Shown here one piece after another: positions 8,151 to 64,000 of a stretch of DNA of 64,000 bases; position 1 is the first letter of the stretch; each line of letters begins with the position of its first letter. The notes under the pieces were generated by a model. The model was not told the origin of the DNA and searched no databases. It worked only from the letters and a program-made list of their open reading frames with translations. This DNA is from an uncultured Pseudomonadota bacterium (GTDB lineage: Bacteria > Myxococcota_A > Polyangia > Nannocystales > Nannocystaceae), in contig CAJXVA010000003.1 in the NCBI GenBank assembly GCA_913061055.1, forward strand, positions 1 to 64,000. The letters run 5' to 3'. A program made the translations under genes and the position numbers.

Positions 8151-9083
8151 GTGGCTGACTTGCCAAATCTTGCGAACCTCGACTATGTCGCCCGCGTCAA
8201 CCGGGCGATCGATCACATCGTCGGGAACTTGAGCGAACCGCTGAAGCTCGAGGATGTCGCCAGGGTCGCGTGCTTTTCCCCCTGCCACTTCCATCGCATC
8301 TTCAAGGGGCTGGTCGGCGAGACCCTCAACGTCTTCGTCAAGCGCGTTCGGTTGGAAAAGGCGGTCCACATGCTGAGTTATCGACAGGGCATGACCCTGA
8401 CGGACATCGCGCTCGCATGTGGTTTTTCCTCGAGTTCGGACTTTTCGCGGAGTTTCCGGAGCCGCTACGGCGTGCCGCCGCGGGTCTTCGACGTCGAAAC
8501 CTTCCGGCGGAGCAATCGCGAAACGATGCATCAGGATCACGCGGGTCCCCAGCAGCTCGCGCGTCTGCCCGCCGGCGACAATCCAGACGGGTTCGCCGTC
8601 ACGCTCCGCGATTGCCCGCGGCGGCGCGTCGCCTACATCCGCGTCCACCGTCCCTACGAGGGGAGCCACGTGATGGACGCGGTGACCCGCTTGCGAGTCT
8701 GGGCGGAGGGGCACGGCCTTGCCGACGGCCAGTGGCTCGGCTACCAGTGGGACGATCCGGAGGTCGTTGCGCTCGACAAGTGTCGCTACGACATCGGGCT
8801 CGAGGTTCCCGACTCCGTTCCGGCACAGGGCGGGGTGTGCATCCACGAGTTCGAGCCCATGAAGGTCGCAGAGCTCGAAATTGCCGGCGGGGTCGATCTG
8901 GAGATGCGCGCTCTCGACTGGCTCTACCTCACCTGGCTGCCGGCCAGTGGGTTCGTCCCCGACGACCAACCAGGTTTCGAAGCGTTCAACGGACAACCGT
9001 TCGCACACGGCTCCGAGTACTTCGAGTTGCGGGTGCAGCTGCCGGTGACCGAAGCCGCGCCGCACACGTTGCCAAAACGGTGA
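8151..9083 (+). CDS. AraC family transcriptional regulator with GyrI-like effector domain
   Basis: HTH: LSEPLKLEDVARVACFSPCHFHRIFKGLVGETLNVFVKRVRLEKAVHML...LTDIALACGFSSSSDFSRSFRSRYG; C-terminal GyrI-like region. Confidence 0.9.
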   Translation: MADLPNLANLDYVARVNRAIDHIVGNLSEPLKLEDVARVACFSPCHFHRIFKGLVGETLNVFVKRVRLEKAVHMLSYRQGMTLTDIALACGFSSSSDFSRSFRSRYGVPPRVFDVETFRRSNRETMHQDHAGPQQLARLPAGDNPDGFAVTLRDCPRRRVAYIRVHRPYEGSHVMDAVTRLRVWAEGHGLADGQWLGYQWDDPEVVALDKCRYDIGLEVPDSVPAQGGVCIHEFEPMKVAELEIAGGVDLEMRALDWLYLTWLPASGFVPDDQPGFEAFNGQPFAHGSEYFELRVQLPVTEAAPHTLPKR

Positions 9084-9160
9084 GGCTAGATCCCCGTCCA
9101 TCCTTCGTCGGTGTCGCACCGTGGGGCGGCGGGCGATCCGAAGCGGGATGCAGATGGAAC

Positions 9161-9197
9161 TTCACTCGAGGCGGAACACGCGAAGCCGCCGAGTGAA
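9161..9197. terminator. Candidate bidirectional hairpin between convergent genes
   Basis: ttcactcg ... cgagtgaa plus gcgg ... ccgc; lies between 9083(+) and 9203(-). Confidence 0.45.
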
Positions 9198-9202
9198 CCC
9201 GA

Positions 9203-9826
9203 TCAGTCGCAGCTCTCGAAGCGCACGTCCGCGACCAAGGTGCCACCGTCTTCGAAGGCGCAGTTCAGCTTGAGCCTTCCGTCGAGCAGTCGAATCTCGT
9301 TGACCCAGGTATCGGTCTTCTTGACCTCCAGGTCGAACGTCGTGCACTGCGAAGGATCCACGCGGACGATGGTGCAGTCATCATTGTCCGGTCCCTTGCA
9401 GGACCCGGGCAGTTCGACGTCCAGGAAGTCTCCCTCCCGAGCGTCCACGACCGCCTTGATGGCGCCGGAGTTCTCGTCGTCTCCAAGGAGGAAGACGCCA
9501 TAGAAAGACTCGTGCTCACCCGATCGACATTGCTGCGGGACGAAGTTCAACGATCCGAGAGGCTCGCCCTGCGCCGTCACACTCCCCTCGGTGCTCGAGC
9601 ATCCTTTGAACATGAACACGGCCCAGAAAATGACGGCCCAGATGGGTAGCGCGAGTAAAGACCGAAGGAAGAGCTTTCGTTTGTTGGCAGGCGCTAGCCC
9701 TTGCGGTCGGGTCCCGGCCTCGACGGCACCCAGCTGCCCCGTCAGGCCATCCCTGGCCGAGCCACACTTGCTGCAGAATCGGTCGTTGGCATCGAATTGT
9801 TCGCCACAAGCTGTACAGAAGGTCAT
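9203..9826 (-). CDS. Zinc-ribbon membrane-anchored protein
   Basis: N-terminal FCTACGEQFDANDRFCSKCG, then TM LFLRSLLALPIWAVIFWAVFMF. Confidence 0.75.
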   Translation of the reverse strand: MTFCTACGEQFDANDRFCSKCGSARDGLTGQLGAVEAGTRPQGLAPANKRKLFLRSLLALPIWAVIFWAVFMFKGCSSTEGSVTAQGEPLGSLNFVPQQCRSGEHESFYGVFLLGDDENSGAIKAVVDAREGDFLDVELPGSCKGPDNDDCTIVRVDPSQCTTFDLEVKKTDTWVNEIRLLDGRLKLNCAFEDGGTLVADVRFESCD

Positions 9827-10081
9827 TTGAACTCGATTCCGCGATGCCTGCCGGGGTCTTCCCGAGACATCGCACCCCGGTGGTGACGCGAGCGGGACAG
9901 CGGTTCAAAAGAACTTTCTTGGCCCCCTCGGCTTCGCCGAAACGGGCGGAGCTACGGTTGCGTCCAGGTATCTGGACCTGGCCCAGAGGCCGAGAGGGTA
10001 CGGACGCAGCCAGAACAATCGCCGCGGGCGTCCATCCCTCGGAGAACGACGTTGGCTCGCTGTCCTTGCTACGCTCCGCGC

Positions 10082-10675
10082 ATGCGGTACGCGCACGCCA
10101 TCATCGACGTCGCAGCAGCCCTGCTCCTGTCTTCCGGCTGCGGTGCGGACAGTGAAGGCACGACGGCCGCCGGAAGCTCGAGCGGCGCGGCTGAGACGGG
10201 AGCCCAAACTTCAACGACCTCGACGACGGGAACCTCGTCCAGCACGTCGGAGGTCGCGGGTACGTCATCCGAGTCGGGGTCCACGGGAACCCTTCCGGAT
10301 GTGCCTGTACCCTCTGGGCCGAACGGCGTGGTTTGCGGCGCTCTGACGTGTGCGCCGGAAGACGCCTGCAACATCTGCAATGCGGATGGCTCCACCTCGT
10401 GCGTTCCTCCGACAGGCGGCGTCGTCTGCCTCGATGGCTGGACGATGCAATGCGATGGGCCGGAGGACTGCGAAGCCGCGCAGCACTGCGTGTTCAACGT
10501 AACCCAGCTCGGCAACCTGGTGTCATGCGCGGACGAAGACTCGTTCGTCGTCTGCGACGCCACACCACAGATCGTCTGCCACGACGACGAGGACTGCCCC
10601 TCGGACTGCCAATACTGTGTCGCGCCGGAAGACGCTGCAAACTCGCCGGTCTCGTTCTGCCGCGTTGTTCCCTGA
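10082..10675 (+). CDS. Putative Cys-rich lipoprotein
   Basis: AAALLLSSGC lipobox, Thr/Ser linker, Cys-rich C-terminus. Confidence 0.7.
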   Translation: MRYAHAIIDVAAALLLSSGCGADSEGTTAAGSSSGAAETGAQTSTTSTTGTSSSTSEVAGTSSESGSTGTLPDVPVPSGPNGVVCGALTCAPEDACNICNADGSTSCVPPTGGVVCLDGWTMQCDGPEDCEAAQHCVFNVTQLGNLVSCADEDSFVVCDATPQIVCHDDEDCPSDCQYCVAPEDAANSPVSFCRVVP

Positions 10676-11140
10676 GAAGGGGATCCCGCCAAACTGAGCG
10701 ATTCAGCTCCCGAGCAACCGCCCTCGGCAGGACCACATCGACAGAAAGCTCAGCGGAGTCGGTGGGCGTGTGCCTCGAGTTCGCACCATGAAACCCACGA
10801 CCCGTTTGCCAAACTCGACGCGACCGAGCAGCTGGCCGACGCTCACAAGGCGGTGAAGAGGCCACGAGGGCCGGGGTTCGAGGCACGGACGAAGTCACGT
10901 CCCTCCGGTGGCGCTGGACGTTCTTCGGTCCTGAGCGACGAGAACGAGCCAGCTCCTCTCAAGTCCCCGATCTACCCAGGGAACGAACCAAGCCGGGCTA
11001 CGAAGAGATCCTGCAGGTGTTCCGCAAGGCCGGTTCCATGACCGCGCAAACGGAATGCGACACCATGGATCGCAGACGCAGGTGGGCCTCACTCGTACGT
11101 TGTGCGGTGACACCGGCGAAAGCTGGCCGGAGTAGGACAT

Positions 11141-12178
11141 GTGTTCGCCCGCAACTTAGGGTGGACTACGTTCCGCGCTCGAAGTTTCTCGTTCTACCTC
11201 GGCGTCGCTCGGTTCGACCTGGGCGGTGTCATTCCAACAAGAACCCGCGACACGGGCAATCCCGCAACCGCGTGGGCCCTGCGCGGCCATCTGATCGCTC
11301 AGCTCGGGCTGTGGAGCGTGACCCCGTTCTTGTTGGCCGGGACCGGACTCCTCGGCGTCGATAGCGATGTGCCTCCGGCGTCCCTCGGCTCGGAGCAGGA
11401 CGTCGCCATTCACTTCGGCGGCGGCGTGAAGGCCTTCATCAACGATCGCATCATGCTGCGGCTGGACGTTCGAAACGTGGTCAGCAACCGCATCGGCGTG
11501 GGCGAGGGCCTCGCGTCCAGCCCCGAGATCCTGCTCGGGCTCACGGTCACGCTCGGTCGCAAGAAGAAGAAACGGCCCCGTCCCACGACCGGCGATCGGG
11601 ACGGCGACCACATCATCGACCGCGACGACTACTGCCCCGACGTCTACGGACCGGCTCCGCGGGGGTGCCCGACGGTCTGCATCGACGACAACGACGGTGA
11701 TGGTCTGGAGAACCCGATCGATAGCTGCCCCAACGACCCTGAGACCCGCAACGGGTTCGAGGACGCCGACGGCTGCCCCGACGAGGTGCCGCCGGAGTTC
11801 GACGATCTCGCCGGCATCATGGAAGGCATCAACTTCGAAACCGACAGGGCGAGCATCAAGTCCTCGTCCAAACCGAGGATCGACAACGCCGTTGAAGTCA
11901 TGAAGCGCTACCCCGACATCCGGGTGAGGATCACAGGCCACACGGACTCGCAGGGCGGATACCCCCACAACGTCGATCTGTCCAAGCGCCGTGCAGAGGC
12001 GGTGCGCAAGTCCATGGTGGACAGCGGCATCAAACCGGGCCGCATCGAAACCCGTGGCGTCGGACCCGACGAACCCGTCGATACCAACGAGACCGCACAG
12101 GGCCGAGCAAACAACCGGCGAATCGAGTTCACGATCCTGGGACAAGACGGCCCGGTGAAGACCAAGAAGTCGCCCTAA
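11141..12178 (+). CDS. OmpA family protein, apparently lacking its 5' end
   Basis: Beta-barrel-like N-part, TSP3-like DRDGDHIIDRDDYCPD repeats, OmpA C-terminus (INFETDRASIKSSSKPRIDNAVEVMKRYPDIRVRITGHTDSQGG...NNRRIEFTI); no signal peptide, in-frame stop at 11108. Confidence 0.8.
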   Translation: MFARNLGWTTFRARSFSFYLGVARFDLGGVIPTRTRDTGNPATAWALRGHLIAQLGLWSVTPFLLAGTGLLGVDSDVPPASLGSEQDVAIHFGGGVKAFINDRIMLRLDVRNVVSNRIGVGEGLASSPEILLGLTVTLGRKKKKRPRPTTGDRDGDHIIDRDDYCPDVYGPAPRGCPTVCIDDNDGDGLENPIDSCPNDPETRNGFEDADGCPDEVPPEFDDLAGIMEGINFETDRASIKSSSKPRIDNAVEVMKRYPDIRVRITGHTDSQGGYPHNVDLSKRRAEAVRKSMVDSGIKPGRIETRGVGPDEPVDTNETAQGRANNRRIEFTILGQDGPVKTKKSP

Positions 12179-12558: not shown

Positions 12559-12638
12559 CCCGGTGCCGCGTTCTTCGTCACCTTCCGCCGCCGCCGTTCC
12601 TCGTCTAGGACTGGCGAATCCGAGCGGGAGAGGAGACC

Positions 12639-15600
12639 ATGAGGGCATCGATGAGTTCCTCGTCGCACCGGTCTGCGGGGGAATCTGCTCAACTCGAGAC
12701 GGCGGTGGTTTCCAGCCGCGAGACTGGCGGGACAGACGACGCGATCCTCGAGACGCTGGCAGAGTTCTCCCCACCGCCGGAACTCGACCGCTACGTGGTC
12801 GTGGAGATCATCGGGCGAGGAGGACTGGGACTGGTCTACGCCGCGAGAGACCCCGTACCCGAGCGCCTTGTAGCGATCAAGCTGATTCGCTCTCGAAACA
12901 AGCGCGACCGAAGCAAGGCGACAGCCCGTTTCCTACGAGAGGCACAGGCGCTCGCAAAGCTCTCCGACCCGAACGTCGTGAGCGTCTACGACGTGGGTAC
13001 CTATGACGACGACGGCCCCTCCGCGTTTGTGGTCATGGAGCTCATCGCGGGCGAGACCCTGTCGGCATGGCTCGAGCAGGAGCGGGACGTCACAGAAATC
13101 GTTCACACATTCGCGCTCGCCGGTCGGGGCCTCGCTGCCGCGCATGCGCACGGGTTGGTCCACCGCGACTTCAAGCCGGACAACGTGATGGTGTGTGATG
13201 ACGGCGCGGTCAAGGTTCTCGACTTTGGCTTGGCTCTGATCGACGGGCAGGGAGAGAGCAGCGCGGGGCTATCGGTGGATCCCGCGACCGATTCAGTGCC
13301 GCTGTCTCCGCCGCGGTTGACCGAAACGGGGCTGGTCATGGGAACGGCACGCTACATGGCGCCCGAGCAGCACGCAGGCAGCGGGGTCGGGCCTGCCGTC
13401 GACCAGTTTTCGTTCTGCCTGGCCCTTCTTCGGGCGCTGCGAGGCGGGACGGATATCTACGACGCCGTGAGCCTGAGAGAGTTGGCGGTCCACAAGTCCG
13501 AGGAACGGGTCCTCGACCGCCCCGAAGGCGATCGAACGCCGCGCCATATCGAGAAGATCCTCCGCCGTGGCCTCTCCCCACAGCCTGGCGATCGTTGGGC
13601 CTCGATGGATGCGTTGCTCGGCGCCCTCACCCACCGCGTCCGCAGACGCTGGATCTTGCCCGTCGCAGCGGGGATCTGCCTCACCGGCATGGCCGCGTGG
13701 GCGGCCTCCCAACCGACGACACACGGCTGCGAAGACGGGGCGGACCGGCTGGAGCGCGCGTGGACCAGAGCTCACCTCGACGAGGTCAAGGTCCGGCTCG
13801 AGCAAGCGGATCCGAAGCTTGCACCGGCGGCTTGGACAGCGCTGCAGACATGGTCGGCCGCAGAGGTCGACGGATGGTCCGATGCATATCGGAGCACGTG
13901 CGCCAAACTCGACTCTGGTGTGCCCGAGGCAGCCGCGTTCGATCAGCGCATGCAGTGTCTGCGAGTCATGGCGGCATCGCGGGAGGGCCTCTTGGAGGTG
14001 CTTGCGGAACCGACCGAAAGGCTCGTAGGACGCCTCCCCGATCAGCTCGACGCGATGCGGCCGATCGCCGAGTGCGGGGAGGACGGAAGACTCGCGCGTG
14101 CGATGATCTTGCCCACACGCGCCCAGGACCGAGAGCGCGTCATCCAGCTGCGCGAGCGTCTTCAGCGCGCCAGAACCCTCTCGGAGTCAGCCCGGCTCGA
14201 TGAGGCTCGCGAGGTCGTCACCGCGGCCGTCCTCGAAGCCAGGGAAATCGGTTTCGAGCCCGTCGTGGCCGAGACGGCGGTTGCGCTCGGCCTTCTCGAG
14301 CTCGACGCCGGATCGTTCGAGGCCGCGGTCGTGGCGTTTGCAGAAGCCGCCGCCGCCGGAGAGTCGTCGCGGCAGGACTTCGCCGCCACGGAGGCGGCAG
14401 CGGGCGCGACCTTCGTACTCGCGACCCGCCTGGGACGCCCGGAGGAGGCACGGCGTTGGCTCGCACGGGCCAGATCCTCTCTCGAGCGGGCGGGACGGCC
14501 CGCAGAGCTAGAGCTCCGGGTGGTTCTCGGGGAGACAGCGCTGCGGTATGGCGCGGAGGACTACGCCGGCGTCGCCGAGCTGCTTGCCGACTTTCTTCTC
14601 CGCTTCGAGGCTCACAGCGCGAAGGATCGGCTGCAGGTCACGGTGCTACTCGGCAACCTCGCAACCGCACAACAGATGCTCGGCGACTATCCAGCCGCGC
14701 TCGCGAGGCTTGAGGAAGCGCTCGCGTTGCGTATCGAGCTCCTCGGTGCTGACCACCCCAAGATCGCCCCGCTTCGCTTCAACCTCGCCAACACCTACTC
14801 CAAGGCGGGGCGCTACCGCGAGGCGATCGAGGAGTATGAGCTCGCGATCGACAGCGTCGAGGCGCGGCTGGGGGCCGACCACTTCGAGGTCGCAAACTTC
14901 TACACCGGACGCGGTGTCGCCCTGAAGAAGCAAGGTCGTTACGACGAAGCGCGAAAAGACTACGAGCACGCACTCGACGTGATGCGAAAGAGCGTGGGTA
15001 CAGACGCCCCCCAGGTCGCGATGCTGCTCGCCAACTTGGGCAACCTCGCCAAGCGGACCGGGGATCCCGACGAGGCGCTCGAGCTTCATCAGCAGGCTCT
15101 CGCGATCCGGGAGAAGCGTCTGGGTGGCGAGCACTCCGACATCGCCTCCTCGCTGGACGACATCGGGTCGCTGTTGCGGGCGCAGGGACGGGTCGACGAC
15201 GGCCTCGGTCGGCACCAAAGGGCGCTGACGATTCGGACGAAGGTCCTGGGCGAGGACCATCCCTCGCTCGCGCTGTCGCACGTCCTGATCGGCAACAGCC
15301 ACCTCGACGCCGGACGTCTCGACGAGGCGGAGCGGTGGTATCGGACCGGTCAGAGGCTGCGTGCCAAGGTTGGCGACCACGAAAACGGTGCCGGCTTGCT
15401 GTTCTTCGGAGAGGGCCGGGTTGCGCTTGCTCGGGGGGAGACGACCGCTGCGATGGAGTCCCTCGGTCGAAGCCTCGAGTTCCTCACCAAGAGCGGGGCA
15501 GCAGCAGAGCTGCTCGGCGAGGTTCGCTTCGCGCTTGCACGTGCTCGCTGGAGCGCCGGGGACAAAGCCCTCGCCCGGGACGCGGTCGCACAGGCTCGCG

Positions 15601-15677
15601 TCGAGTTGCGGACCGGCGGCGCAGCGACCCAAAACCGTCTCGCTGAGCTCGAAGCCTGGACGCTCACGCTTCGCTGA
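12639..15677 (+). CDS. Ser/Thr protein kinase with TM and C-terminal TPR region
   Basis: IGRGGLGLVYAARD, VHRDFKPDNVMV, DFGLAL; TM RRWILPVAAGICLTGMAAWAAS; TPR-like repeats. Confidence 0.92.
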   Translation: MRASMSSSSHRSAGESAQLETAVVSSRETGGTDDAILETLAEFSPPPELDRYVVVEIIGRGGLGLVYAARDPVPERLVAIKLIRSRNKRDRSKATARFLREAQALAKLSDPNVVSVYDVGTYDDDGPSAFVVMELIAGETLSAWLEQERDVTEIVHTFALAGRGLAAAHAHGLVHRDFKPDNVMVCDDGAVKVLDFGLALIDGQGESSAGLSVDPATDSVPLSPPRLTETGLVMGTARYMAPEQHAGSGVGPAVDQFSFCLALLRALRGGTDIYDAVSLRELAVHKSEERVLDRPEGDRTPRHIEKILRRGLSPQPGDRWASMDALLGALTHRVRRRWILPVAAGICLTGMAAWAASQPTTHGCEDGADRLERAWTRAHLDEVKVRLEQADPKLAPAAWTALQTWSAAEVDGWSDAYRSTCAKLDSGVPEAAAFDQRMQCLRVMAASREGLLEVLAEPTERLVGRLPDQLDAMRPIAECGEDGRLARAMILPTRAQDRERVIQLRERLQRARTLSESARLDEAREVVTAAVLEAREIGFEPVVAETAVALGLLELDAGSFEAAVVAFAEAAAAGESSRQDFAATEAAAGATFVLATRLGRPEEARRWLARARSSLERAGRPAELELRVVLGETALRYGAEDYAGVAELLADFLLRFEAHSAKDRLQVTVLLGNLATAQQMLGDYPAALARLEEALALRIELLGADHPKIAPLRFNLANTYSKAGRYREAIEEYELAIDSVEARLGADHFEVANFYTGRGVALKKQGRYDEARKDYEHALDVMRKSVGTDAPQVAMLLANLGNLAKRTGDPDEALELHQQALAIREKRLGGEHSDIASSLDDIGSLLRAQGRVDDGLGRHQRALTIRTKVLGEDHPSLALSHVLIGNSHLDAGRLDEAERWYRTGQRLRAKVGDHENGAGLLFFGEGRVALARGETTAAMESLGRSLEFLTKSGAAAELLGEVRFALARARWSAGDKALARDAVAQARVELRTGGAATQNRLAELEAWTLTLR

Positions 15678-21318: not shown

Positions 21319-23922
21319 CTAGGGCTCGAGTCTGCCCGGCTCGGGCTCAGCGCGCAGTCGGTCCAGGTGGCGGACGGCGGAGGCGCGGTCTGGATCCCGC
21401 AACGGGGCGTCGAGCGCAGACTCGAAGAACGCGATCGCTCGCCCGGGCTCGCCCTCCGCCTCCAGCAGCCGTGCTCGCGCCGTTTCGGCGGCAAATCGAT
21501 CGTGGTGCTCCAGCGGGTACGCACGGAAGATCTTGAGCGCGATGTTCAAGGACGTCCTGGCCTCTTCGAAACGACTCAGCTCGCGCAACGCGTTGGCCAT
21601 TTGGATTCGCAGCGAACCATGCTCATCGCTTTCGGGGCCTTCCACAGCGGAGAAAACCTCGGCGGACTCCCGAAGGTAGGGCAGCGCCTCCGCATGACGG
21701 CCCAGTCGGGACAGCGTCTCCCCAACGTTCGCCGTCGCCGTCGCGATGGACCGATGCGCATGAGGAAGCAACGCGCGCCGAATCGTCAGCGCTCGATGGA
21801 AGTGCGGCAGGCTCCCCTCGAGATCTCCGCTCATCGCCAAGACAGTCCCCAGGTTGTTGAGGGCCGTGGCAACTGCGCGATGGGTGTCTCCCCATGCCTC
21901 GGTCTGCACGGCGACCGCCCGTTCATAGATAGGTCGCGCCTCGTTCGTCCGCCCGCGCTCGTTGAGGATCTTGCCGTGCGTGTTGAGGGCCTGCCCCAAG
22001 CTTCGGAGGACTCCACTGTCCTCGGCATGGCGAACCCCCGCCTCAGCGGATTCGAGCGCGCGAGCTTCGTCGCCTTCGTGGTGGAAGGCCAAGGCCTCGA
22101 TCCGGGCGAACGCGGCCCGCTGCAAATCTGTTTCGAGTGAGGCCCGCGCAGATCGCAACCACCGATGCGCCTCCTCGGGGTCACGCTTCGCCGAGCCCTT
22201 CGCCAGTCGCATGGCCAGGTCCCTCGCGAGCTCGACACGCCCTGCTGCCTTGGCCGCGAAGTAGCTCTGCTCCCCCAGCACCCGGCCCTCCTCGCGGCGC
22301 CCGTTGGAGGTCAAAGCCAACGCACGACTTGCACGCGCGTCGAGGAGCAGGTCCGGCTCTCCAAGTTCGGTCGCCGTCGCGAGCGCGCCTTCGGTGCAGT
22401 CGAGTTCCCCGCGGGAGTCTCCCGTCGCACTGATCACGCTGCAACGTTCTAGGACCGCATAGGTCGCCTCGATCTGCGCCCTGAGGTTCGGGTCACTCGG
22501 ACGCTCAGGGAGTTCACCATCGGCCCCACACCGCTGGGGCTCCGGCAAACTCGCCACGGTGTCGAGCGCCCGCCCCACCGCCTCCCCCTCGACCGATCGC
22601 AGAGCGTCGACGACCGCCTCGAGTCGCCGCAGCTGCCGCGTGAGACACAACGAACGCGTGTCGAACACCTTCTCGGTCTGTGTCTCCTGTACGTAGGTCG
22701 CCTGACAGTTCTCGCGAGACGCCGCCGACCACCGCCCGGCCCAGTCGTCGACCCGGCGCTCCGCCAGGGCCCATGTCTTGGCAACGTGCGCACGCTCGAC
22801 CTTCCCGAACGCCGCATCGATCGCGGACCGCTCGACCTCGTTCCACGCCGCGTCCAGCCGGCTGGTGGCCTGCGCACACGGTGTTTCTCCCCCACCCAGA
22901 GCCCAGACCACGCCTCCCACCGCAACAGCCCCGACCGCGGGGAAGACCCACCACCTCCGGCGCTGGGGAGGCTCCAGAGCTTCGAGCAGCGCCTCCATGT
23001 TCGGCCATCGATCCTCTGCGGACGGCTGAAGCCCGCGTACCACCGCATCTGCGACGGCGGCCGCCCGGGCGTCTCCTGGGGGCGCCAGGGGCTGGACCCC
23101 ACACATCTGCTCGGCGATCTGGGCGACCACCGTGGACCCGGGAAACGGTGAACGGCCCCACAGCGCCTCATACAACGAAACACAGAAGGCAAACTGATCC
23201 GCCCCCGGCCCAACCTCGGCCAGGGCGAACTGCTCCGGAGCCATGTACTTCGGCGTGCCGTGCAGACGCCCGAGGTCGGTGAATGCCTCGGAAAGCGCCG
23301 ACTCGGAGGGGAGCACTACATCCGCCGCCGAGGCATCCGGGTCCGAGGAGCCGGTACGCCCGGCCTCGCGAGCCAGACCGAAGTCCATCACCCGCACCCC
23401 GTCCACGAGGCGCGCACCCTCATGGTCGGCGCAGATCATCACGTTCGCCGGCTTGAAATCGCAGTGAACGAGTTCGGCTCGATGCGCCGCCGCGAGACCG
23501 CGACCCGCCGCTTTGAAGACGGTGAGAATGTCCCGTGCGGACCGCGGCTCGGCATCCAGCCATTCCGCGAGGGTCACCCCTTCGATGCGCTCCATCGCAA
23601 TGAACGGGCGGCCGTTCACGACCCCAACGTCGTGGATGACGACGATGTTTGGGTGGTTCAGACGCGCCAACGCCTGGGCCTCCCGCTTCAGCCAGGTGTC
23701 ACCCTTCGCGTCCGCGCGGTGAAGGACCTTGATCGCAACCGGGCGGCCCAGTTCCGGATCCCGGGCGGACACCACCACCCCCATCCCACCGGAGCCGATC
23801 ACTTCTTCGATCTCGTAGCGACCCACGCGCGAACCCGGCTCGAGCCCGCGCGCTGGTTCGTACTCGCCATCGGCTCCCTCCGTGGCATCTGGGTCGAAAC
23901 CCGGCGTACGAGAACGATGCAC
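21319..23922 (-). CDS. Ser/Thr protein kinase (HCD catalytic loop) with TM and TPR region
   Basis: IGSGGMGVVVSARD, VAIKVL, LVHCDFKPANVMI, DFGLAREAG; TM RRRWWVFPAVGAVAVGGVVWALGGG; TPR-like C-terminus; GTG start 23922 proposed. Confidence 0.9.
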   Translation of the reverse strand: MHRSRTPGFDPDATEGADGEYEPARGLEPGSRVGRYEIEEVIGSGGMGVVVSARDPELGRPVAIKVLHRADAKGDTWLKREAQALARLNHPNIVVIHDVGVVNGRPFIAMERIEGVTLAEWLDAEPRSARDILTVFKAAGRGLAAAHRAELVHCDFKPANVMICADHEGARLVDGVRVMDFGLAREAGRTGSSDPDASAADVVLPSESALSEAFTDLGRLHGTPKYMAPEQFALAEVGPGADQFAFCVSLYEALWGRSPFPGSTVVAQIAEQMCGVQPLAPPGDARAAAVADAVVRGLQPSAEDRWPNMEALLEALEPPQRRRWWVFPAVGAVAVGGVVWALGGGETPCAQATSRLDAAWNEVERSAIDAAFGKVERAHVAKTWALAERRVDDWAGRWSAASRENCQATYVQETQTEKVFDTRSLCLTRQLRRLEAVVDALRSVEGEAVGRALDTVASLPEPQRCGADGELPERPSDPNLRAQIEATYAVLERCSVISATGDSRGELDCTEGALATATELGEPDLLLDARASRALALTSNGRREEGRVLGEQSYFAAKAAGRVELARDLAMRLAKGSAKRDPEEAHRWLRSARASLETDLQRAAFARIEALAFHHEGDEARALESAEAGVRHAEDSGVLRSLGQALNTHGKILNERGRTNEARPIYERAVAVQTEAWGDTHRAVATALNNLGTVLAMSGDLEGSLPHFHRALTIRRALLPHAHRSIATATANVGETLSRLGRHAEALPYLRESAEVFSAVEGPESDEHGSLRIQMANALRELSRFEEARTSLNIALKIFRAYPLEHHDRFAAETARARLLEAEGEPGRAIAFFESALDAPLRDPDRASAVRHLDRLRAEPEPGRLEP

Positions 23923-24025
23923 CGACGGCAGTCTACGAAAGTCGGGGCTGCCGTGGGGCAGGGAACCCCGCCTCTCAGCAGGCGCGGGCCTGCAACCGAG
24001 CGCCCAGACCACCGTCCACATCTCG

Positions 24026-25621
24026 ATGAACGGGAACACCCTCGCCCTGGCCCTTTGTATGGCGACTGCCGGCTTGGGGTGTTCCGCGAACCCGGGCGAG
24101 AGCGGCGAGATGGACCCAGAGCAAGCGCCCACAGCATCCTCAGGCGCGACATCTGGCGCAGGGAGCGAGAGCGGCGAGGCCGAAGGGGGAACTCATGGCG
24201 GCAACGACGAGACCGGCAACGCCACCTCCGATCCCACAGCGGGACCTCCGGCATGTTCGGCGGTGGGTTTCTCCAACGCTGAGTTGGCGTGGGCGCTCCC
24301 GCAGGTCCAGGGAGGCCCGGGATTTCGCAACCTCGGCGGCGTCGACGATTGCGGTGGCGTGGTCGGCGGCTTCCGCTACACCACGACCGACCTCACAGGA
24401 GACGGCTCCCCCGACCTCATCCTGACCTATCTGTGCGACACCAACGACACGGGCAATTCCTCCTGGTTGGTGTTTGAGAGTACCGGCAGCGGATTTCCCG
24501 AAAACCCGACCTCCTGGTCCCTTCCCCAGATTCAGGGGAGTCCGGGCTTTCGGGATTTCTCCGGAGTGGGTGACTGCGCAGGGGTCGTCAACGGTTTCCG
24601 CTACTCCACGACCGACCTCACTGGGGACGGCCTCCCGGACCTCGTCCTCACCTATCTGTGCGACACCAACGGCACGGGTGACGAATCGTGGCTCGTCTAC
24701 GAAAACACCGGAAGCGGCTTCTCCAACAACGCGACCACGTGGTCGCTGCCTCAAATTCAGGGCGGCCCTGGTTTCCGCAACCTCAGCGGAGTCGGTGACT
24801 GCGGCGGGGTCGCCAACGGATTCCGCTACTCGACCGCGGACCTCACGGGCGACGGCCTGCCGGACATGGTCCTCACCTATCTGTGCGACACCAACGACAC
24901 CGGTGATGCCTCGTGGGTCGTCTACGAGAACACCGGAAGCGGCTTCTCCAACAGCGCGATCACCTGGTCACTCCCGCAGATCCAAGGGAGCCCGGGGTTC
25001 CGCGATATCAGCGGTACGGGTGACTGCGGCGGGATCGTCAACGGCTTTCGGTACTCCACTTCGGACCTCACCGGTGACGCTTTGCCCGACCTCGTCCTCA
25101 CCTACCTTTGCGACACGAACGGTACCGGAGACGACTCTTGGCTGGTCTACGAGAACAACGGAAGCGGCTTCTCGAACAGCGCGACCACTTGGGCACTTCC
25201 GCAGATCCAAGGAAGCCCCGGCTTTCGAAATCTTGGCGGCGTGGGCGACTGTGGCGGGGTCGTCAACGGCTTCCGGTACTCCGTCAGCGACTTGACGAGC
25301 GACGGCTTGCCCGACCTCGTTCTCACATACCTCTGCGACACCAACGACACCGGTGACGAGTCGTGGCTCGTCTACGAAAACACCGGTGACGGCTTCTCCG
25401 GGGGTGCTTCGACGTGGTCGCTGCCGCAGATCCAAGGCGGGCCCGGCTTCCGCGACATCGGAGGCGTGGGTGACTGCGGTGGCGTGGTGAACGGGTTCCG
25501 CTACGCAACCACCGACCTCACCAGTGATGGGCTACCCGACCTCGTGCTCACCTATCTCTGCGACACGAACGGCACGGGTGAGGAGTCTTGGCTCGTCTAC
25601 GAAGGCGTCTGCGCACCGTGA
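24026..25621 (+). CDS. Lipoprotein with six tandem 75-aa FG-GAP-like repeats
   Basis: ALCMATAGLGC lipobox; repeated DLTGDGLPDLVLTYLCDTN. Confidence 0.8.
   Translation: MNGNTLALALCMATAGLGCSANPGESGEMDPEQAPTASSGATSGAGSESGEAEGGTHGGNDETGNATSDPTAGPPACSAVGFSNAELAWALPQVQGGPGFRNLGGVDDCGGVVGGFRYTTTDLTGDGSPDLILTYLCDTNDTGNSSWLVFESTGSGFPENPTSWSLPQIQGSPGFRDFSGVGDCAGVVNGFRYSTTDLTGDGLPDLVLTYLCDTNGTGDESWLVYENTGSGFSNNATTWSLPQIQGGPGFRNLSGVGDCGGVANGFRYSTADLTGDGLPDMVLTYLCDTNDTGDASWVVYENTGSGFSNSAITWSLPQIQGSPGFRDISGTGDCGGIVNGFRYSTSDLTGDALPDLVLTYLCDTNGTGDDSWLVYENNGSGFSNSATTWALPQIQGSPGFRNLGGVGDCGGVVNGFRYSVSDLTSDGLPDLVLTYLCDTNDTGDESWLVYENTGDGFSGGASTWSLPQIQGGPGFRDIGGVGDCGGVVNGFRYATTDLTSDGLPDLVLTYLCDTNGTGEESWLVYEGVCAP
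24290..25621 (+). repeat. Six in-frame 225-bp tandem repeats
   Basis: Conserved tgg codon of W(S/A)LPQ(I/V)QG at 24290, 24515, 24740, 24965, 25190, 25415 (exact 225-bp spacing). Confidence 0.95.
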
Positions 25622-52764: not shown

Positions 52765-54066
52765 CTACTCCAGGGTCGCGAGACCCGAAACTTGCGATTG
52801 CTCGGCGATGTTGCCGAGCGACTGGAAGACGCCTGCGCCTTCTTCAGCGACGGGCCCAGCGAGCGGCTTGATGAAGAACGGCATCGGGCTGTCGTCGGGG
52901 TCAGGCTCGACGGACAGGACGACCGTGGTTCCCGTCAGCTTCATCGCGGGGTCGATGAAGTCCTGACCGGGGAACGGAGGCGCTCCATCGGGACCTGCAG
53001 CAGGGCCCGCACCATCGCGGTCCGCCATCGAGGGGTCGACGAACGTTCCGGTCGAGATCGGTCCGTCCTCGCCCACGACCCAGCCTTCGTAGCGCCACCC
53101 CGCGGGCAGCTCCGGAAGCTCGAGGCCCGCGCCGGGTCCGGCTGCCGGCTCGAGGAACCAGACGCCTTGGTCGAAGTCGTCCGCGATCCCTGCCGTCGTG
53201 GGCGTCTCGAGGATGAAGCCGCCCTTGGAGTCCAAGAAGTCCGTCCCGAATGCAGCGCCGTGGTTCATGGTCAGCTGTGCGACTCCGCCATCGAAGGGAC
53301 CGGCCACGATGTGCGTGTCCGAAGGTGCGGGGTCGTCACCGAACTTGGGCTCGATGGTGAGCACGAACATCACGCTTGCGTCCGCAAGCTCGCGGTCGAT
53401 GTTGAAGGTGTGGCTGTCCTCGTCGCCGTTGACGACGAAGCGACCCGACGTAACCGGGCCGTCCTCGGTGATCAGCCATCCCTCGTAGAGGAAGTCGTCG
53501 CCGAGCACCGGAAGGTCGGCAAACGAGAGCTCGAGCTTGGCGTCGTTGCTGCCCCCGTCGGTCACGCCGCACCACACGTCGACACTGGTCTTGGCGCACA
53601 GGAAGGCGTCGCTGGTGAGCTCCGAAACGTTGGCCGGTGAAACGCCCTGGGCCCGCGCCATCGCGCCGAACACTTCACTGCTGGCCGAGTCGAACCGGTC
53701 GCCGTGGATCGTCGCCAGGAACCCGCCGACATCCATCGTCGCGGTGCGCGAGTACAGGTTGCAGGACGCCGCTTCCCCGTTGCTGACGCAGATGCTGTAG
53801 ACGCCGTAGCGGTAGTCGAGACCTTCGCGGGTCAGCGACGTGAAGCCGCCGGAGCGGTCGAAGATGTCGTAGAGCTCGACCGCTGCGTCGCCGCGGATCT
53901 GCAAGACGTCGTAGGCGCCCGCATCGGCGATTGCCACTTCGGAGCCATCGGCTTTGCCCGCTGGGGCACCGAGCGCATCGGGGTTCACGCCTTCAAACGA
54001 CTCGCCGGAGTCACAAGCCAGGGGTGCGAGAGCAAGGAGGACGATGGTGCTGAGTTTCTTGGACAT
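52765..54066 (-). CDS. Lipoprotein with two RskA/anti-sigma-K-like modules
   Basis: LLALAPLAC lipobox; FLYEGWLITEDGPVTSGRF...VLTIEP and WRYEGWVVGEDGPISTGTF...VLSVEP. Confidence 0.65.
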   Translation of the reverse strand: MSKKLSTIVLLALAPLACDSGESFEGVNPDALGAPAGKADGSEVAIADAGAYDVLQIRGDAAVELYDIFDRSGGFTSLTREGLDYRYGVYSICVSNGEAASCNLYSRTATMDVGGFLATIHGDRFDSASSEVFGAMARAQGVSPANVSELTSDAFLCAKTSVDVWCGVTDGGSNDAKLELSFADLPVLGDDFLYEGWLITEDGPVTSGRFVVNGDEDSHTFNIDRELADASVMFVLTIEPKFGDDPAPSDTHIVAGPFDGGVAQLTMNHGAAFGTDFLDSKGGFILETPTTAGIADDFDQGVWFLEPAAGPGAGLELPELPAGWRYEGWVVGEDGPISTGTFVDPSMADRDGAGPAAGPDGAPPFPGQDFIDPAMKLTGTTVVLSVEPDPDDSPMPFFIKPLAGPVAEEGAGVFQSLGNIAEQSQVSGLATLE

Positions 54067-54413
54067 GATTTGGATCTCACTTGGGTCGGAAGCCGCGCCC
54101 GCACGCCGCTTCGTGGTGAATCCCGCTCGACGTCGGCGGTATGCGTCCAAGGTCCGAAACCAACCAGGTCAACGATTCGCACTGGCTGTGCACACTTCGG
54201 CAACAATGCCCGTGACGTCCCGAATCCGGGGTGTAAGACCCACATCGGCGCGTCACAGCGGGGTCGAGAAACTTTGCGACGGACTTCGAAGACGAGTCAG
54301 AGTCGCCCCGACGCCCCCCACCACTCCGACACGGGGCCCGTTCGCAGATTGACGCAAGCGCACCGCAGCGTACGGATTCTTCGTCGCGCTCCAAGCTGCT
54401 ACCCTGTGCTCTG

Positions 54414-58378: not shown

Positions 58379-58521
58379 GAGAAGTTCCCCGAGGGTTCGG
58401 AAGCTCAAACACCGCCGCGCGGACCATCTGTCCCCCTTTTGGCAGGACTTTGTTTCGAGCGTAGTAAAACGCACAGGTGAATCGGGAACCTCTGGACCCT
58501 CCAACTGCACAACGCCCTTTG

Positions 58522-59919
58522 ATGCGGTGGGGAAACACATCAAGGATCGTGCTTCTGGGGCTGGCTGCGACGGCGTTGGCCTGCAACTCCGACACCTCGA
58601 GCGGGGCGTTCGAGTCCGCCGCTGGAGACGGTTCCAGCTCCGAGGGAGCGGAGGCGGGCTCGGGCACCTCGCCCTCGAGCAGCAGCAACCCGTCCGCGGG
58701 AGCGACGAGTTCGCCCGGCGGATCGAGCGGCGAGTCCGTCGATGAGACCGGCGACGGAATCAAGCTCGACGTCGGTTCGCCCGAGGGTGGATTTGGCAGC
58801 TGCGAATGCGAGCTCACCTATCTGTGGGTCGCCGACCACGTCGAGGGCACGGTCTCCAAGATCAACACCCGCACGCTCGTCGAAGAGGGTCGCTACCTGA
58901 CCCGCGCCGACGGAAACGGCAACCCGTCACGCACGTCCGTCAACCTCTCGGGCGACGTCGCGGTCGCCAACCGACATGGCGGCCTCACCAAGTTCTACGC
59001 CAACCCGGACAACTGCCTCGACACCAACGGCACCCCCGGCATTCAGACCAGCACGGGTCCAGACGACGTGCTCCCGTGGGACCAAGAAGAGTGCCGTGCG
59101 TGGTTCACGGACTTCCCGACCAGCAACCAGCGCCCTGTCGCATGGACCGGCGATACCACCGAGCCGGGCAACTGCGATGCCAGTGTCTCGCAGGTCTGGA
59201 CCGTGACCTCGACCGTGCCCGGACTGATCCCCGGCCTCGGTGGTGCCGGGGGCGTCACGGCCTCGCTGCTGGATGGGCTCACCGGATCGGTCGATGCCGA
59301 GGTCGACATCCCGGACTTCCCCGGCGGCAGCTTCGGCGCCTACGGGGGCGCGGTCGATGGTGGGGGCAACCTGTACTTCAGCCCGCTGGGCGGCTTCGGT
59401 GCAGCGCTGCTGGCCAAGGTCGACAAGGACACGCTCACCTATCAGATCTGGGACATCCCGGCGGGCGTCGCCCCATACGGCATCACCGTCGACCACAAAG
59501 GTCGGGTGTGGCTCGCCAGCAACTTTGGCAGCATCGCCGGGCGCTTCGATTCGACCACCGAGACCTGGGAAGTCGTCGAAGGCATCGGCGGCGGGTCCGG
59601 GCTCGCCGAGGGGCCCGACGACCTGATGTACGTCAGCCAAGGCAACAGCGTGCACGCGGTCCACATCGACACGCTGGACATCATGGGGACGTGGACCACC
59701 GACGAGGGGGTCAAGGGCGTGAGCTTCGATGCGGACGGCTACCTGTGGGCCGTCACGTACCGCGACGACGAAGACCCCATGTCCGAAGCCGGAGCGTTCA
59801 AGATCGACGTCGACACGATGACCGCCGTCGACGTCTTCACCGGACTGCGCGACCCGTACACCTACTCGGACATGACCGGCAACGCGTTGGGTTCGGTAGC
59901 CTGCGCACCCGAAGGCTGA
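58522..59919 (+). CDS. Vgb/SMP-30-like beta-propeller lipoprotein
   Basis: TALAC lipobox; LWVADHVEGTVSKINTRTL...GGAVDGGGNLYFSPLG...YGITVDHKGRVWLASN. Confidence 0.75.
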   Translation: MRWGNTSRIVLLGLAATALACNSDTSSGAFESAAGDGSSSEGAEAGSGTSPSSSSNPSAGATSSPGGSSGESVDETGDGIKLDVGSPEGGFGSCECELTYLWVADHVEGTVSKINTRTLVEEGRYLTRADGNGNPSRTSVNLSGDVAVANRHGGLTKFYANPDNCLDTNGTPGIQTSTGPDDVLPWDQEECRAWFTDFPTSNQRPVAWTGDTTEPGNCDASVSQVWTVTSTVPGLIPGLGGAGGVTASLLDGLTGSVDAEVDIPDFPGGSFGAYGGAVDGGGNLYFSPLGGFGAALLAKVDKDTLTYQIWDIPAGVAPYGITVDHKGRVWLASNFGSIAGRFDSTTETWEVVEGIGGGSGLAEGPDDLMYVSQGNSVHAVHIDTLDIMGTWTTDEGVKGVSFDADGYLWAVTYRDDEDPMSEAGAFKIDVDTMTAVDVFTGLRDPYTYSDMTGNALGSVACAPEG

Positions 59920-60025: not shown

Positions 60026-61270
60026 ATGGCTTTGCTTCGCTTGATCTCCTTGGGTGCTTTGGCAGCGGTGGGTGCTGTCGCCATTGCGCCATCGACCGCC
60101 CACGCCTGCTCCATCGATCCCTGCGCCGAATCGGCCGAGTTCGGCATGCTGCGAGTGACGCACGAGACCGTCACCACCGACGGCGTCTTGTTGCTGAGCT
60201 CCCAGCAGGGCGACTCCGATGCCCTCTCCCCGCAGGACGCGATCGCCCGCATGACCGTCGTCGTGACCGAGGAAGACATTGAGCTTTCCGGCACGATCGA
60301 ACACGCCGCGGGCGAGTACTTCTGGCGCCCGGACGCTCCGCTGTTGGCCGGGAGCACGTTGAACGTCACGGTGAGCATGGAAGCCAACCCCGACGACATC
60401 CAGCAGTGTGGTGCCGCGGCCGGAGGTGAGACGACCGTGGTCGTGCTCGACGAAGTGCTCCCCGCACTGGAGCTCCCCTCGGTCGAGGGCACCACCGATT
60501 ACTGGTTCGCCGAGGACGTCACCTTCGAGACCGCGGTCTGCTGCGACGATGGAACCGTCAACGTCGATAGCTGCAACACGCCTGGCTTCTCGGGCACCGG
60601 GTTTTGTGTGGCCCCCTCGGGAACCGGCTACGCGACGGGCTCACTGACCATCGGTGCGCTCCCCGCGAACCTGGGGCCCAGCGTGGCCATCGAGTACCTC
60701 GTCGACGGCGAGGCCATTCACAGCCAGGACGGGACCGAGCCGCTCGGCTGGGGCATCAGCCGCTCGGCAGCGTTCGATGTGCAGGTGCGCGTCACCAGCT
60801 TGATCGATGGCAGCACCCTCGAGACCGACGCGGTCACGGTCGACGGCGACAACCCGGATGGGCTGGGAGAACAGGTCGTCGATGTGGCAGCCGAGCTCGA
60901 AGCCAACTGCGAAGGCGAGCCGTACACCTGCGAGACCGAGGACGACTTCGCGTGGGACCCAGAGAACTGCACGCCCTACGATGATGGCGGGACCGACTCC
61001 GACTCGGGCGGCTCCGACACCGACAGCGGTGGTTCCGATTCCGACTCGGACTCAGGCTCCGGTGGCTCAGACTCGGACTCCGCAGGCTCAGACTCGGACT
61101 CGAACTCGGGCGGCTCAGACTCAGACTCTGCCGGCTCCGGCTCGGATACCGACGGTGATCCCGGCCAAGACGACGGCGGTGGAGGCTGTTCCGTCGGCGG
61201 CAGTGGCCTTGGCGGCGCATGGTTGTTGTTGCTTGGCTTCGCAGGCGTCTTCCGGCGGCGTCGGCAGTAG
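60026..61270 (+). CDS. MYXO-CTERM-like cell-surface protein (cassette copy 1)
   Basis: Signal peptide; Ser/Asp/Gly repeats; tail GGCSVGGSGLGGAWLLLLGFAGVFRRRRQ. Confidence 0.8.
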   Translation: MALLRLISLGALAAVGAVAIAPSTAHACSIDPCAESAEFGMLRVTHETVTTDGVLLLSSQQGDSDALSPQDAIARMTVVVTEEDIELSGTIEHAAGEYFWRPDAPLLAGSTLNVTVSMEANPDDIQQCGAAAGGETTVVVLDEVLPALELPSVEGTTDYWFAEDVTFETAVCCDDGTVNVDSCNTPGFSGTGFCVAPSGTGYATGSLTIGALPANLGPSVAIEYLVDGEAIHSQDGTEPLGWGISRSAAFDVQVRVTSLIDGSTLETDAVTVDGDNPDGLGEQVVDVAAELEANCEGEPYTCETEDDFAWDPENCTPYDDGGTDSDSGGSDTDSGGSDSDSDSGSGGSDSDSAGSDSDSNSGGSDSDSAGSGSDTDGDPGQDDGGGGCSVGGSGLGGAWLLLLGFAGVFRRRRQ

Positions 61271-61303
61271 CGAGATCAGCCCAGATGAGCGAAGGTCACC
61301 GCC

Positions 61304-61606
61304 ATGAAGCGCGTGTCCTTCGCTCTGCTCGTTTTGGTCGCTTGCAAACCCGCAGCCGCTCCGTCCTCGGACCAGCCCGGCACCGCCGACGGAGGTCTGC
61401 CCGCTGGTAACAGCGGTCCCGAAGCGACCCTAACCGCCACCGAGTGTGAGGACGGCGGAGGCAGCGTCGTCGGCGACATCGGCGACGGTGCGATCTTCAA
61501 ACCCGACTACGTCTGCGAGAGCAACGGCGAAGCTCCGACCGCCCGCATCAAGGCCGAAGAAGGCGGGCCGATCGGAGTCGAAGGCTCCGTCTGCTGCGGC
61601 GGCTGA
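61304..61606 (+). CDS. Small CCG-ending lipoprotein (cassette copy 1)
   Basis: LLVLVAC lipobox; ECEDGGGSVVGDIGD...GVEGSVCCGG. Confidence 0.7.
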   Translation: MKRVSFALLVLVACKPAAAPSSDQPGTADGGLPAGNSGPEATLTATECEDGGGSVVGDIGDGAIFKPDYVCESNGEAPTARIKAEEGGPIGVEGSVCCGG

Positions 61607-61723
61607 CGAGATCGCCCCCTCAGGCGATCATTTGCGCTACGACAGCAGTGTCGCAGTTCGCGGCTTCTCAGCAGCGCGGCGAAAAAACGTGCAAGACGGC
61701 CGGGCAGGCGCCCTCTACCCAAC

Positions 61724-62881
61724 ATGCCTGCTTCCGTGACTTATCTACGCTTGATTTCGTTGGGCGCGATCGCCTTTGCTGCCACTGCTGCGCTACGCCC
61801 TGCGACTGCGCACGCCTGCACCCCGGACTTCTGCGAGGACTCCACCGAGTTCAACCAGCTCGCGGTTGCCACCGACCAAGTCCTTCCCAGCGGCGTCATC
61901 GTGCTGAGCACGCGACAACGAAACATCGGCAACACACAAGACGCCCTCGACCGCCTCTCCATCGCCGTCCTCGACGCTGACGGAGCGGAACGACCGGGCG
62001 CAGTCGACGAGGTGGGCGGTGTGTATTTTTGGCGTCCGGATTCCGCGTTCGTCGTCGGTGAGGTCGTCACCGTGACGGTCAGCGACGACGGCAGCTTCTA
62101 TCAGGAGTGCGGATACGAGGACGACAGCGGGGTCACGACGGTTGAAGTTGTCGAAGGCCAGCTGCCCGAGCTCGAACTGCCAAGCATCGAGGTGGAGACC
62201 TCCTACGACATCGTGCGAGCGTTCGACGTCAACTCCACACTGTGTTGTGATGACGGATTCCTCAACGCCAGCGGGTGCGGTGACGCGTTCCCTGGCCAAG
62301 AAGGCTTCTGTGTCGCAACGGAACAGACCGGGTGGGCCACCGCGAACGTCTCCGCCTCCGCCATCTCACTCGGTCCTCCGGTCGCTGTCGAGTTCATCGT
62401 GGACGGTATGACCCGAACGAGTCGCAACGGACTTCAGTTCGCGGAACTGCCGACCTTCTCGGAACGATCGCCTGTTTCTTTCACAGTTCAGATCCGCGTC
62501 ACGAGTGTGCTCGACGGCACGATGCTGGAGAGTGAGGTCTATACGATCGATGCTGGCGATGCCGGTCCCCTCGGCCCGCTGGCCATCGACGCATCGGCAG
62601 AGCTGGAAGCCAACTGCGAGAGCCCCGCCTATTCCTGCGACGAGAACATCGACGGGGGGTGGGATGAGGACAACTGCACGCCGCACAGCGGTGCATCGGA
62701 TCCGGGCGACACCGGCGGCGCAGGTGGTGAGGACACCGACGGCGCGGCTGGTGAGGACACCGACGGCGCAGCTGGTGAGGACACCGACGGCGGGGGCTGC
62801 CGAGTCGGAGGTCAGGGGCCAGCCGGGGCTTCCTTGTTCCTGCTCGCGCTCGCGGCCGTTGTGCGTCGACAGACGCGGTAG
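61724..62881 (+). CDS. MYXO-CTERM-like cell-surface protein (cassette copy 2)
   Basis: Homologous to 60026-61270; tail GGGCRVGGQGPAGASLFLLALAAVVRRQTR. Confidence 0.8.
   Translation: MPASVTYLRLISLGAIAFAATAALRPATAHACTPDFCEDSTEFNQLAVATDQVLPSGVIVLSTRQRNIGNTQDALDRLSIAVLDADGAERPGAVDEVGGVYFWRPDSAFVVGEVVTVTVSDDGSFYQECGYEDDSGVTTVEVVEGQLPELELPSIEVETSYDIVRAFDVNSTLCCDDGFLNASGCGDAFPGQEGFCVATEQTGWATANVSASAISLGPPVAVEFIVDGMTRTSRNGLQFAELPTFSERSPVSFTVQIRVTSVLDGTMLESEVYTIDAGDAGPLGPLAIDASAELEANCESPAYSCDENIDGGWDEDNCTPHSGASDPGDTGGAGGEDTDGAAGEDTDGAAGEDTDGGGCRVGGQGPAGASLFLLALAAVVRRQTR
62726..62793 (+). repeat. 24-bp minisatellite encoding GEDTDGAA
   Basis: ggtgaggacaccgacggcgcggct, nearly three copies. Confidence 0.85.
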
Positions 62882-63068
62882 GGTGTTGACGCCCGCGCTC
62901 AGAGTTCCGCGATCGATTCGGCCCGGGCGCGGACCTGGTTGAACCCAAGACGGGGAATCGCGGCGGAAGGACGAGTCCCGTCAGCCCGAACAACACGACT
63001 GCGGCTGGCGCGACCCGCATCCGCGTGCCCAAAGACGCGGCCCCGAACAGCCCGCTCCCCCTCGGCCC

Positions 63069-63335
63069 ATGAGCCGTTCGACACCGAAGCACGCGCGCGG
63101 GACGATGAGCGCGATGGGACGTTCTCTTGCTCTCCTCGCCACGCTCGCACTGATCTCCTGCAACGAAGACGACGCGTATACAGTCGCCGACTGCGAAGCC
63201 GACGGCGGAACGGTGGTGACCAGCATTGGAGACGAGTTCCCGATGTGCCCGTCCGGGTCTGCAACGCTGGGCCGCGTGACGACCAAAGACGGGAAGCCAG
63301 TGGCGACCGAGGGCGCCATCTGCTGCGGAATGTGA
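63069..63335 (+). CDS. Small CCG-ending lipoprotein (cassette copy 2)
   Basis: LATLALISC lipobox; DCEADGGTVVTSIGD...ATEGAICCGM. Confidence 0.7.
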   Translation: MSRSTPKHARGTMSAMGRSLALLATLALISCNEDDAYTVADCEADGGTVVTSIGDEFPMCPSGSATLGRVTTKDGKPVATEGAICCGM

Positions 63336-63757: not shown

Positions 63758-63838
63758 GACGCTCGGTTGCGCGCGCGGGGGCGAAACAGGCTTCGAAGCT
63801 CGGTTCGCTCGCGACGATCCGGTGCGACAATCGGGGAG

Positions 63839-64000
63839 GTGACGCAGAGCTGGAGTACGAGCCCGGACGAAGCCACGAAGGTCGAGGCGAAGTCGGACGG
63901 GAGATCCTCTTCGCCATCGGCGACGACGAGCATCGAGATCGGCCAAGTCGTCGCAGGTCGGTACACCGTCACCGACCGCATCGGCCAAGGCGCGATGGGG
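63839..64000 (+). CDS. Ser/Thr protein kinase, N-terminus only (cut by window end)
   Basis: Translated by eye from GTG 63839: VTQSWSTSPDEATK...IGQVVAGRYTVTDRIGQGAMG, the kinase Gly-rich loop; not in ORF track. Confidence 0.8.
   Translation, partial: MTQSWSTSPDEATKVEAKSDGRSSSPSATTSIEIGQVVAGRYTVTDRIGQGAMG

Follow-up and report, generated by a model that had tools for sequence, protein, structure and literature searches.

Architecture of the locus

Within the 64,000-nucleotide stretch of DNA analysed here (the window), two genes for secreted proteins, A1 and A2, alternate with two genes for small lipoproteins, B1 and B2. All four open reading frames of this A-B-A-B arrangement, as laid out in the preliminary description, are present on the forward strand (Table 1), although the shape of the B2 signal peptide, judged by inspection, makes a start at 63105 or 63114 more probable than the one listed. 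A1 and B1 are separated by 33 bp, which renders co-transcription plausible in this lineage; the gap between B1 and A2 measures 117 bp and that between A2 and B2 187–223 bp. The corresponding intergenic regions, compared for a trace of segmental duplication, had no similarity left, and a promoter and terminator scan of the locus gave results near chance level. A reading of the locus as a defence system was discarded, since a PADLOC search matched none of the four genes.

Just upstream of A1 lies a lipoprotein gene (58477–59919) whose product weakly matches virginiamycin B lyase/beta-propeller proteins. Its homologs in a relative of the same genus (G001) are found on contigs C96 (40% identity) and C98 (33%), about 20–30 kb from the respective B gene. 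Downstream, after a glyoxalase-like gene, a large TPR-repeat Ser/Thr protein kinase occupies 63767–64000 and continues to contig position 66706; similar kinases appear to recur at 12609–15674 and 21322–24192, where the same homologs were matched.

Table 1 Genes, protein segments and flanking gene of the A-B-A-B locus (window coordinates).
Feature	Position	Strand	Description
A1	60026..61270	+	Secreted MYXO-CTERM protein, 414 aa
A1 domains			Signal peptide to about residue 27, Cys-rich two-domain Ig/FN3-like ectodomain (predicted), Ser-Asp-rich repeat linker, C-terminal MYXO-CTERM tag
A1 linker, Ser-Asp-rich	60986..61146	+	Tandem repeats, in frame, with units of 21-48 bp
A1 MYXO-CTERM tag	61175..61264	+	
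B1	61304..61606	+	Small 100-aa lipoprotein with lipobox LVAC; canonical Cys-rich family member (GDIGDGAI..PDY.C...EGSVCC)
A2	61724..62881	+	Sister paralog of A1 (385 aa) with a GEDTDGAA repeat linker and a MYXO-CTERM tag
A2 linker, GEDTDGAA	62708..62792	+	24-bp tandem repeat, 3.5 copies
A2 MYXO-CTERM tag	62786..62878	+	
B2	63069..63335	+	Small, divergent B-family lipoprotein with lipobox LISC; DGAI..PDY segment absent
Flanking gene	52768..54168	-	Common to the syntenic locus G001 C96, 62% identity

A1 and A2 are related MYXO-CTERM proteins

The relationship between A1 and A2 proposed earlier is firmly borne out, with 40% identity over 364 aa (BLASTP, E = 2e-69). When the alignment was restricted to the core, leaving aside signal peptides, linkers and C-terminal tags, it still scored 530, and shuffled sequences reached at most 89; the likeness thus extends to the folded part and is not confined to linker and tag. 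In 21 aligned A homologs, conserved positions include cysteines and the motifs W-R-P and CCDG. The suspected MYXO-CTERM tails are likewise genuine: A1 (22.1 bits) and A2 (22.0 bits) both exceed the curated TIGR03901 cut-off of 20 bits, and did so again in a genome-wide search, where they are among the 57 matches listed. Both tags, GGGGCSVGG...LLLLGFAGVFRRRRQ in A1 and DGGGCRVGG...LFLLALAAVVRRQTR in A2, combine an invariant Cys with a transmembrane stretch and an Arg-rich tail. Both linkers are made of tandem repeats that keep the reading frame, and this accounts for the different linker sequences of the two proteins. Their difference, previously taken as a sign of an old duplication with functional pairing, therefore says little about function.

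An AlphaFold2 model of the mature part of A1, computed from 17 sequences (those of the window plus named Nannocystis and Polyangia records), comprises two mostly-beta domains with a mean pLDDT of 84.4. The top Foldseek matches of this model were generic tandem Ig/FN3 chains (E values of 1e-3 to 2e-4, probability 0.99–1.00), at whole-chain TM-scores of about 0.13–0.31 and 12–13% sequence identity, values that leave the general fold class alone in common. On this model, the A ectodomain is predicted to be a tandem of Ig/FN3-like beta-sandwiches. It matched no family in Pfam or NCBIfam.

B1 and B2 belong to one small lipoprotein family

B1 and B2 share about 37% identity over 57 aa (pairwise E = 3e-10), and their alignment score of 106, against a maximum of 67 among 5000 shuffles, refutes the possibility that they align no better than shuffled sequence. 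B1 alone as query retrieved B2 from the whole genome (E = 1.4e-4), and B2 alone retrieved other members of the B1 family, such as one on contig C149 of genome G006 (E = 4.5e-8); these separate single-sequence searches place both proteins in one family. By inspection, both carry a lipobox of the form [LVI][ASTVI][GAS]C. The C-terminal domain of the family is very regular (C-E-x-x-G-G-x-V-V-G-D-I-G-D-G-A-I-x-x-P-D-Y-x-C ... E-G-x-V-C-C) and matched no Pfam family. B1 is a typical representative and is nearer to the B protein of the same-genus relative (64%) than to B2, which forms a very long branch in the B tree and is devoid of the central segment. A structure model of B, for which two sequences served as input, was of low quality (pLDDT 43.9).

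The B family, mostly with one copy per genome, extends to a few members in other taxonomic families of the class and has almost no neighbouring genes in common across genera. The B domain also occurs as a C-terminal fusion in longer lipoproteins, in the genome studied (G000, contig C834, 733–1884) and in the same-genus relative (G001, contig C86, 7481–9460). The host lipoprotein at these loci has a Cys-rich module of its own, and one neighbouring gene is common to both, with 75% identity between the two species.

A and B are unlinked outside the window

For each family a profile was made, from 21 sequences for A and 16 for B, and run against 29 genomes of the order. A yielded 72 matches in 20 genomes (1–8 per carrying genome; some matches are fragments of one gene), and B 16 matches in 12 genomes. 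The only contig carrying both was that of the window, so that just two of the 72 A matches, the window copies themselves, share a contig with B. Neighbourhood analysis, suggested earlier as a check, gave the same answer: among 32 neighbourhoods of up to 20 kb, A and B occur together in the window contig only, with no B in any other A neighbourhood fetched and no A in any other B neighbourhood. In a phylum-wide sample of 284 genomes, four genomes outside the family carry B and eleven carry A, none carries both, and no further linkage appeared.

Several of the relatives are fragmented, as is the genome studied (a draft of 913 contigs, 89% complete), and some B neighbours of A could therefore fall in gaps. 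Near-complete genomes of the Nannocystis-type genus g12 are free of this problem. Six genomes of the genus (G020, G023, G039, G040, G041 and G042; 1–60 contigs, several in 1 to 5) hold 5–8 A matches and no B each. A seventh, fragmented member (G012, 88% complete) carries both on separate contigs, and genome G009 has B and no A. A conserved A-B operon is ruled out by these neighbourhood and presence/absence data. The claim that A is always followed by B thus holds inside the window only, and the functional pairing built on it falls with the routine occurrence of A without B across the order, which the preliminary description had itself named as refuting.

Tandem duplication is recurrent in the A family elsewhere, in each case in the absence of B: a triple array on G040 C1, a pair on G023 C3, an array on G012 C116 and a pair on C163 of the genome studied. 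The last of these (9162–11395) consists of more distant A homologs and adjoins an isocitrate dehydrogenase-like gene.

A1 and A2 arose by a lineage-specific duplication

The closest A homolog outside the window lies on contig C145 of the same genome (46% identity to A1), with no B nearby. In the A tree, A1 and A2 are sisters (100/99), joined by C145 (100/95) and then by the gene on G001 C70. Approximately unbiased (AU) tests rejected the pairing of C145 with G001 C70 (p = 0.021) as well as that of C145 with A1 (p = 0.0006). Together, tree and tests identify A1 and A2 as extra copies gained in this lineage, where they derive from a C145-type gene. Their split postdates that from the same-genus relative, which makes the duplication lineage-specific rather than ancient, and an ancient duplication common to the relatives is excluded by the same data. 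Of the old tandem duplication first envisaged, the local duplication therefore stands and the age does not. The B trees were compatible with every placement of B2, including a sister pairing with B1 (AU test, p = 0.365).

Contig C145 (A gene at 8742–10046) is fully syntenic with G001 C70 (117271–118539), with no B near either gene, and this type of locus is the ancestral A locus, kept by synteny. Flanking proteins of the two contigs are mostly 68–86% identical, compared with just 49% for the A orthologs; on these identities, the A family is evolving unusually fast. Such divergence is in keeping with a surface protein that faces changing pressures.

The end of the window contig is syntenic, in inverted orientation, with G001 C96. 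There, B adjoins genes for a methyltransferase and an M19 dipeptidase, the same two that follow the window locus, and A is absent. This lone B suggests that B was probably resident at the locus and A was added later; loss of A in G001 would be a less simple alternative. Synteny with G001 C96 extends through the locus (window 52768–54168 and 61304–63335, and G000 C3 67246–70217), and the genes between the common flanks are almost wholly different, indicating fast regional turnover. The relative's second B gene lies on contig C98; the orthologous contig of the genome studied, C803, ends short of that place.

Interpretation of the arrangement

As the A and B families lie apart in every relative examined, the locus points to ordinary local gene-family expansion rather than to a conserved partner system. 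We consider it highly probable that a fast-evolving A family expanded locally, in this lineage, at a site that also carries the unrelated lipoprotein family B. This reading brings together the sequence homologies, the MYXO-CTERM tag, the fold predicted for A and its gene tree, the synteny comparisons and the lack of A-B linkage outside the window. The A proteins would then expose two Ig/FN3-like domains upon a flexible acidic linker, probably serving adhesion or ligand binding, with export and anchoring presumably resembling those worked out in Myxococcus xanthus. B would be an ordinary outer-membrane lipoprotein working without A.

A more elaborate history, in which A arrived beside a resident B, the two came to be transcribed together and this young unit was duplicated a single time, appears unlikely. 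One tandem A-B duplication would leave the A-B-A-B order as its simplest footprint, and the 33-bp gap between A1 and B1, the lineage-specific sisterhood of A1 and A2, the survival of a B1-B2 pairing in the AU test and the lone B at the sister species' syntenic locus are all consistent with it. The B genes speak against such a unit, as B1 is nearer to the relative's B than to B2 and B2 is an extremely long branch; so do the much wider A2-B2 gap and the corresponding intergenic regions, which retain no similarity. The products of such a unit may or may not cooperate. That B went on, in this lineage alone, to help display, or to bind, one particular A once an operon had formed and been duplicated strikes us as more doubtful still; if true, a newly formed two-gene surface system would have been caught at an early stage. 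Least credible is an old cassette, each sorted surface protein invariably acting together with a Cys-rich lipoprotein of its own: both window copies do run A then B on one strand, but A is routinely found without B, genus g12 lacks B throughout except in G012, and the A duplication is not old.

In summary, the highly probable local expansion of A beside B illustrates that what looks like a duplicated cassette in a single genome can result from two expanding families of secreted proteins lying side by side by chance. Two families of the Nannocystis-containing order, neither of them described before, are also defined: the Ig-like MYXO-CTERM proteins, which evolve fast, and the small B lipoproteins, which are conserved.

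Comparison with known systems

MYXO-CTERM proteins (TIGR03901) are sorted by myxosortase, with TraA as the prototype, and in M. xanthus myxosortase cleavage and surface display through the T2SS constitute a known mechanism (PMC11980579). A1 and A2 resemble these proteins in their N-terminal signal peptide and in a C-terminal tag made up of a Gly-rich stretch, a Cys, a hydrophobic helix and an Arg cluster; they differ in the ectodomain, a predicted Cys-rich tandem Ig/FN3-like module that is undescribed. Tandem Ig/FN3 surface modules likewise consist of successive beta-sandwich domains, as the A1 model would have it. The FN3-like modules of Clostridium thermocellum CbhA (3pdd), the SiiE adhesin (2yn3) and the Deinococcus HPI S-layer protein (8cka), which were among the Foldseek matches, are nevertheless set apart from A1 by the low whole-chain TM-scores and sequence identity given above.

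Like other small outer-membrane lipoproteins of Myxococcota, the B proteins combine a type II signal peptide and lipobox with a short low-complexity spacer and a small Cys-containing domain. Their domain differs in lying outside Pfam and in occurring also at the C-terminus of longer lipoproteins. A SitA-type lipoprotein toxin cassette, as known from the myxobacterial literature, was also considered; B would be unlike such polymorphic toxins, being a short domain that is conserved across genera and encoded at unlinked loci.
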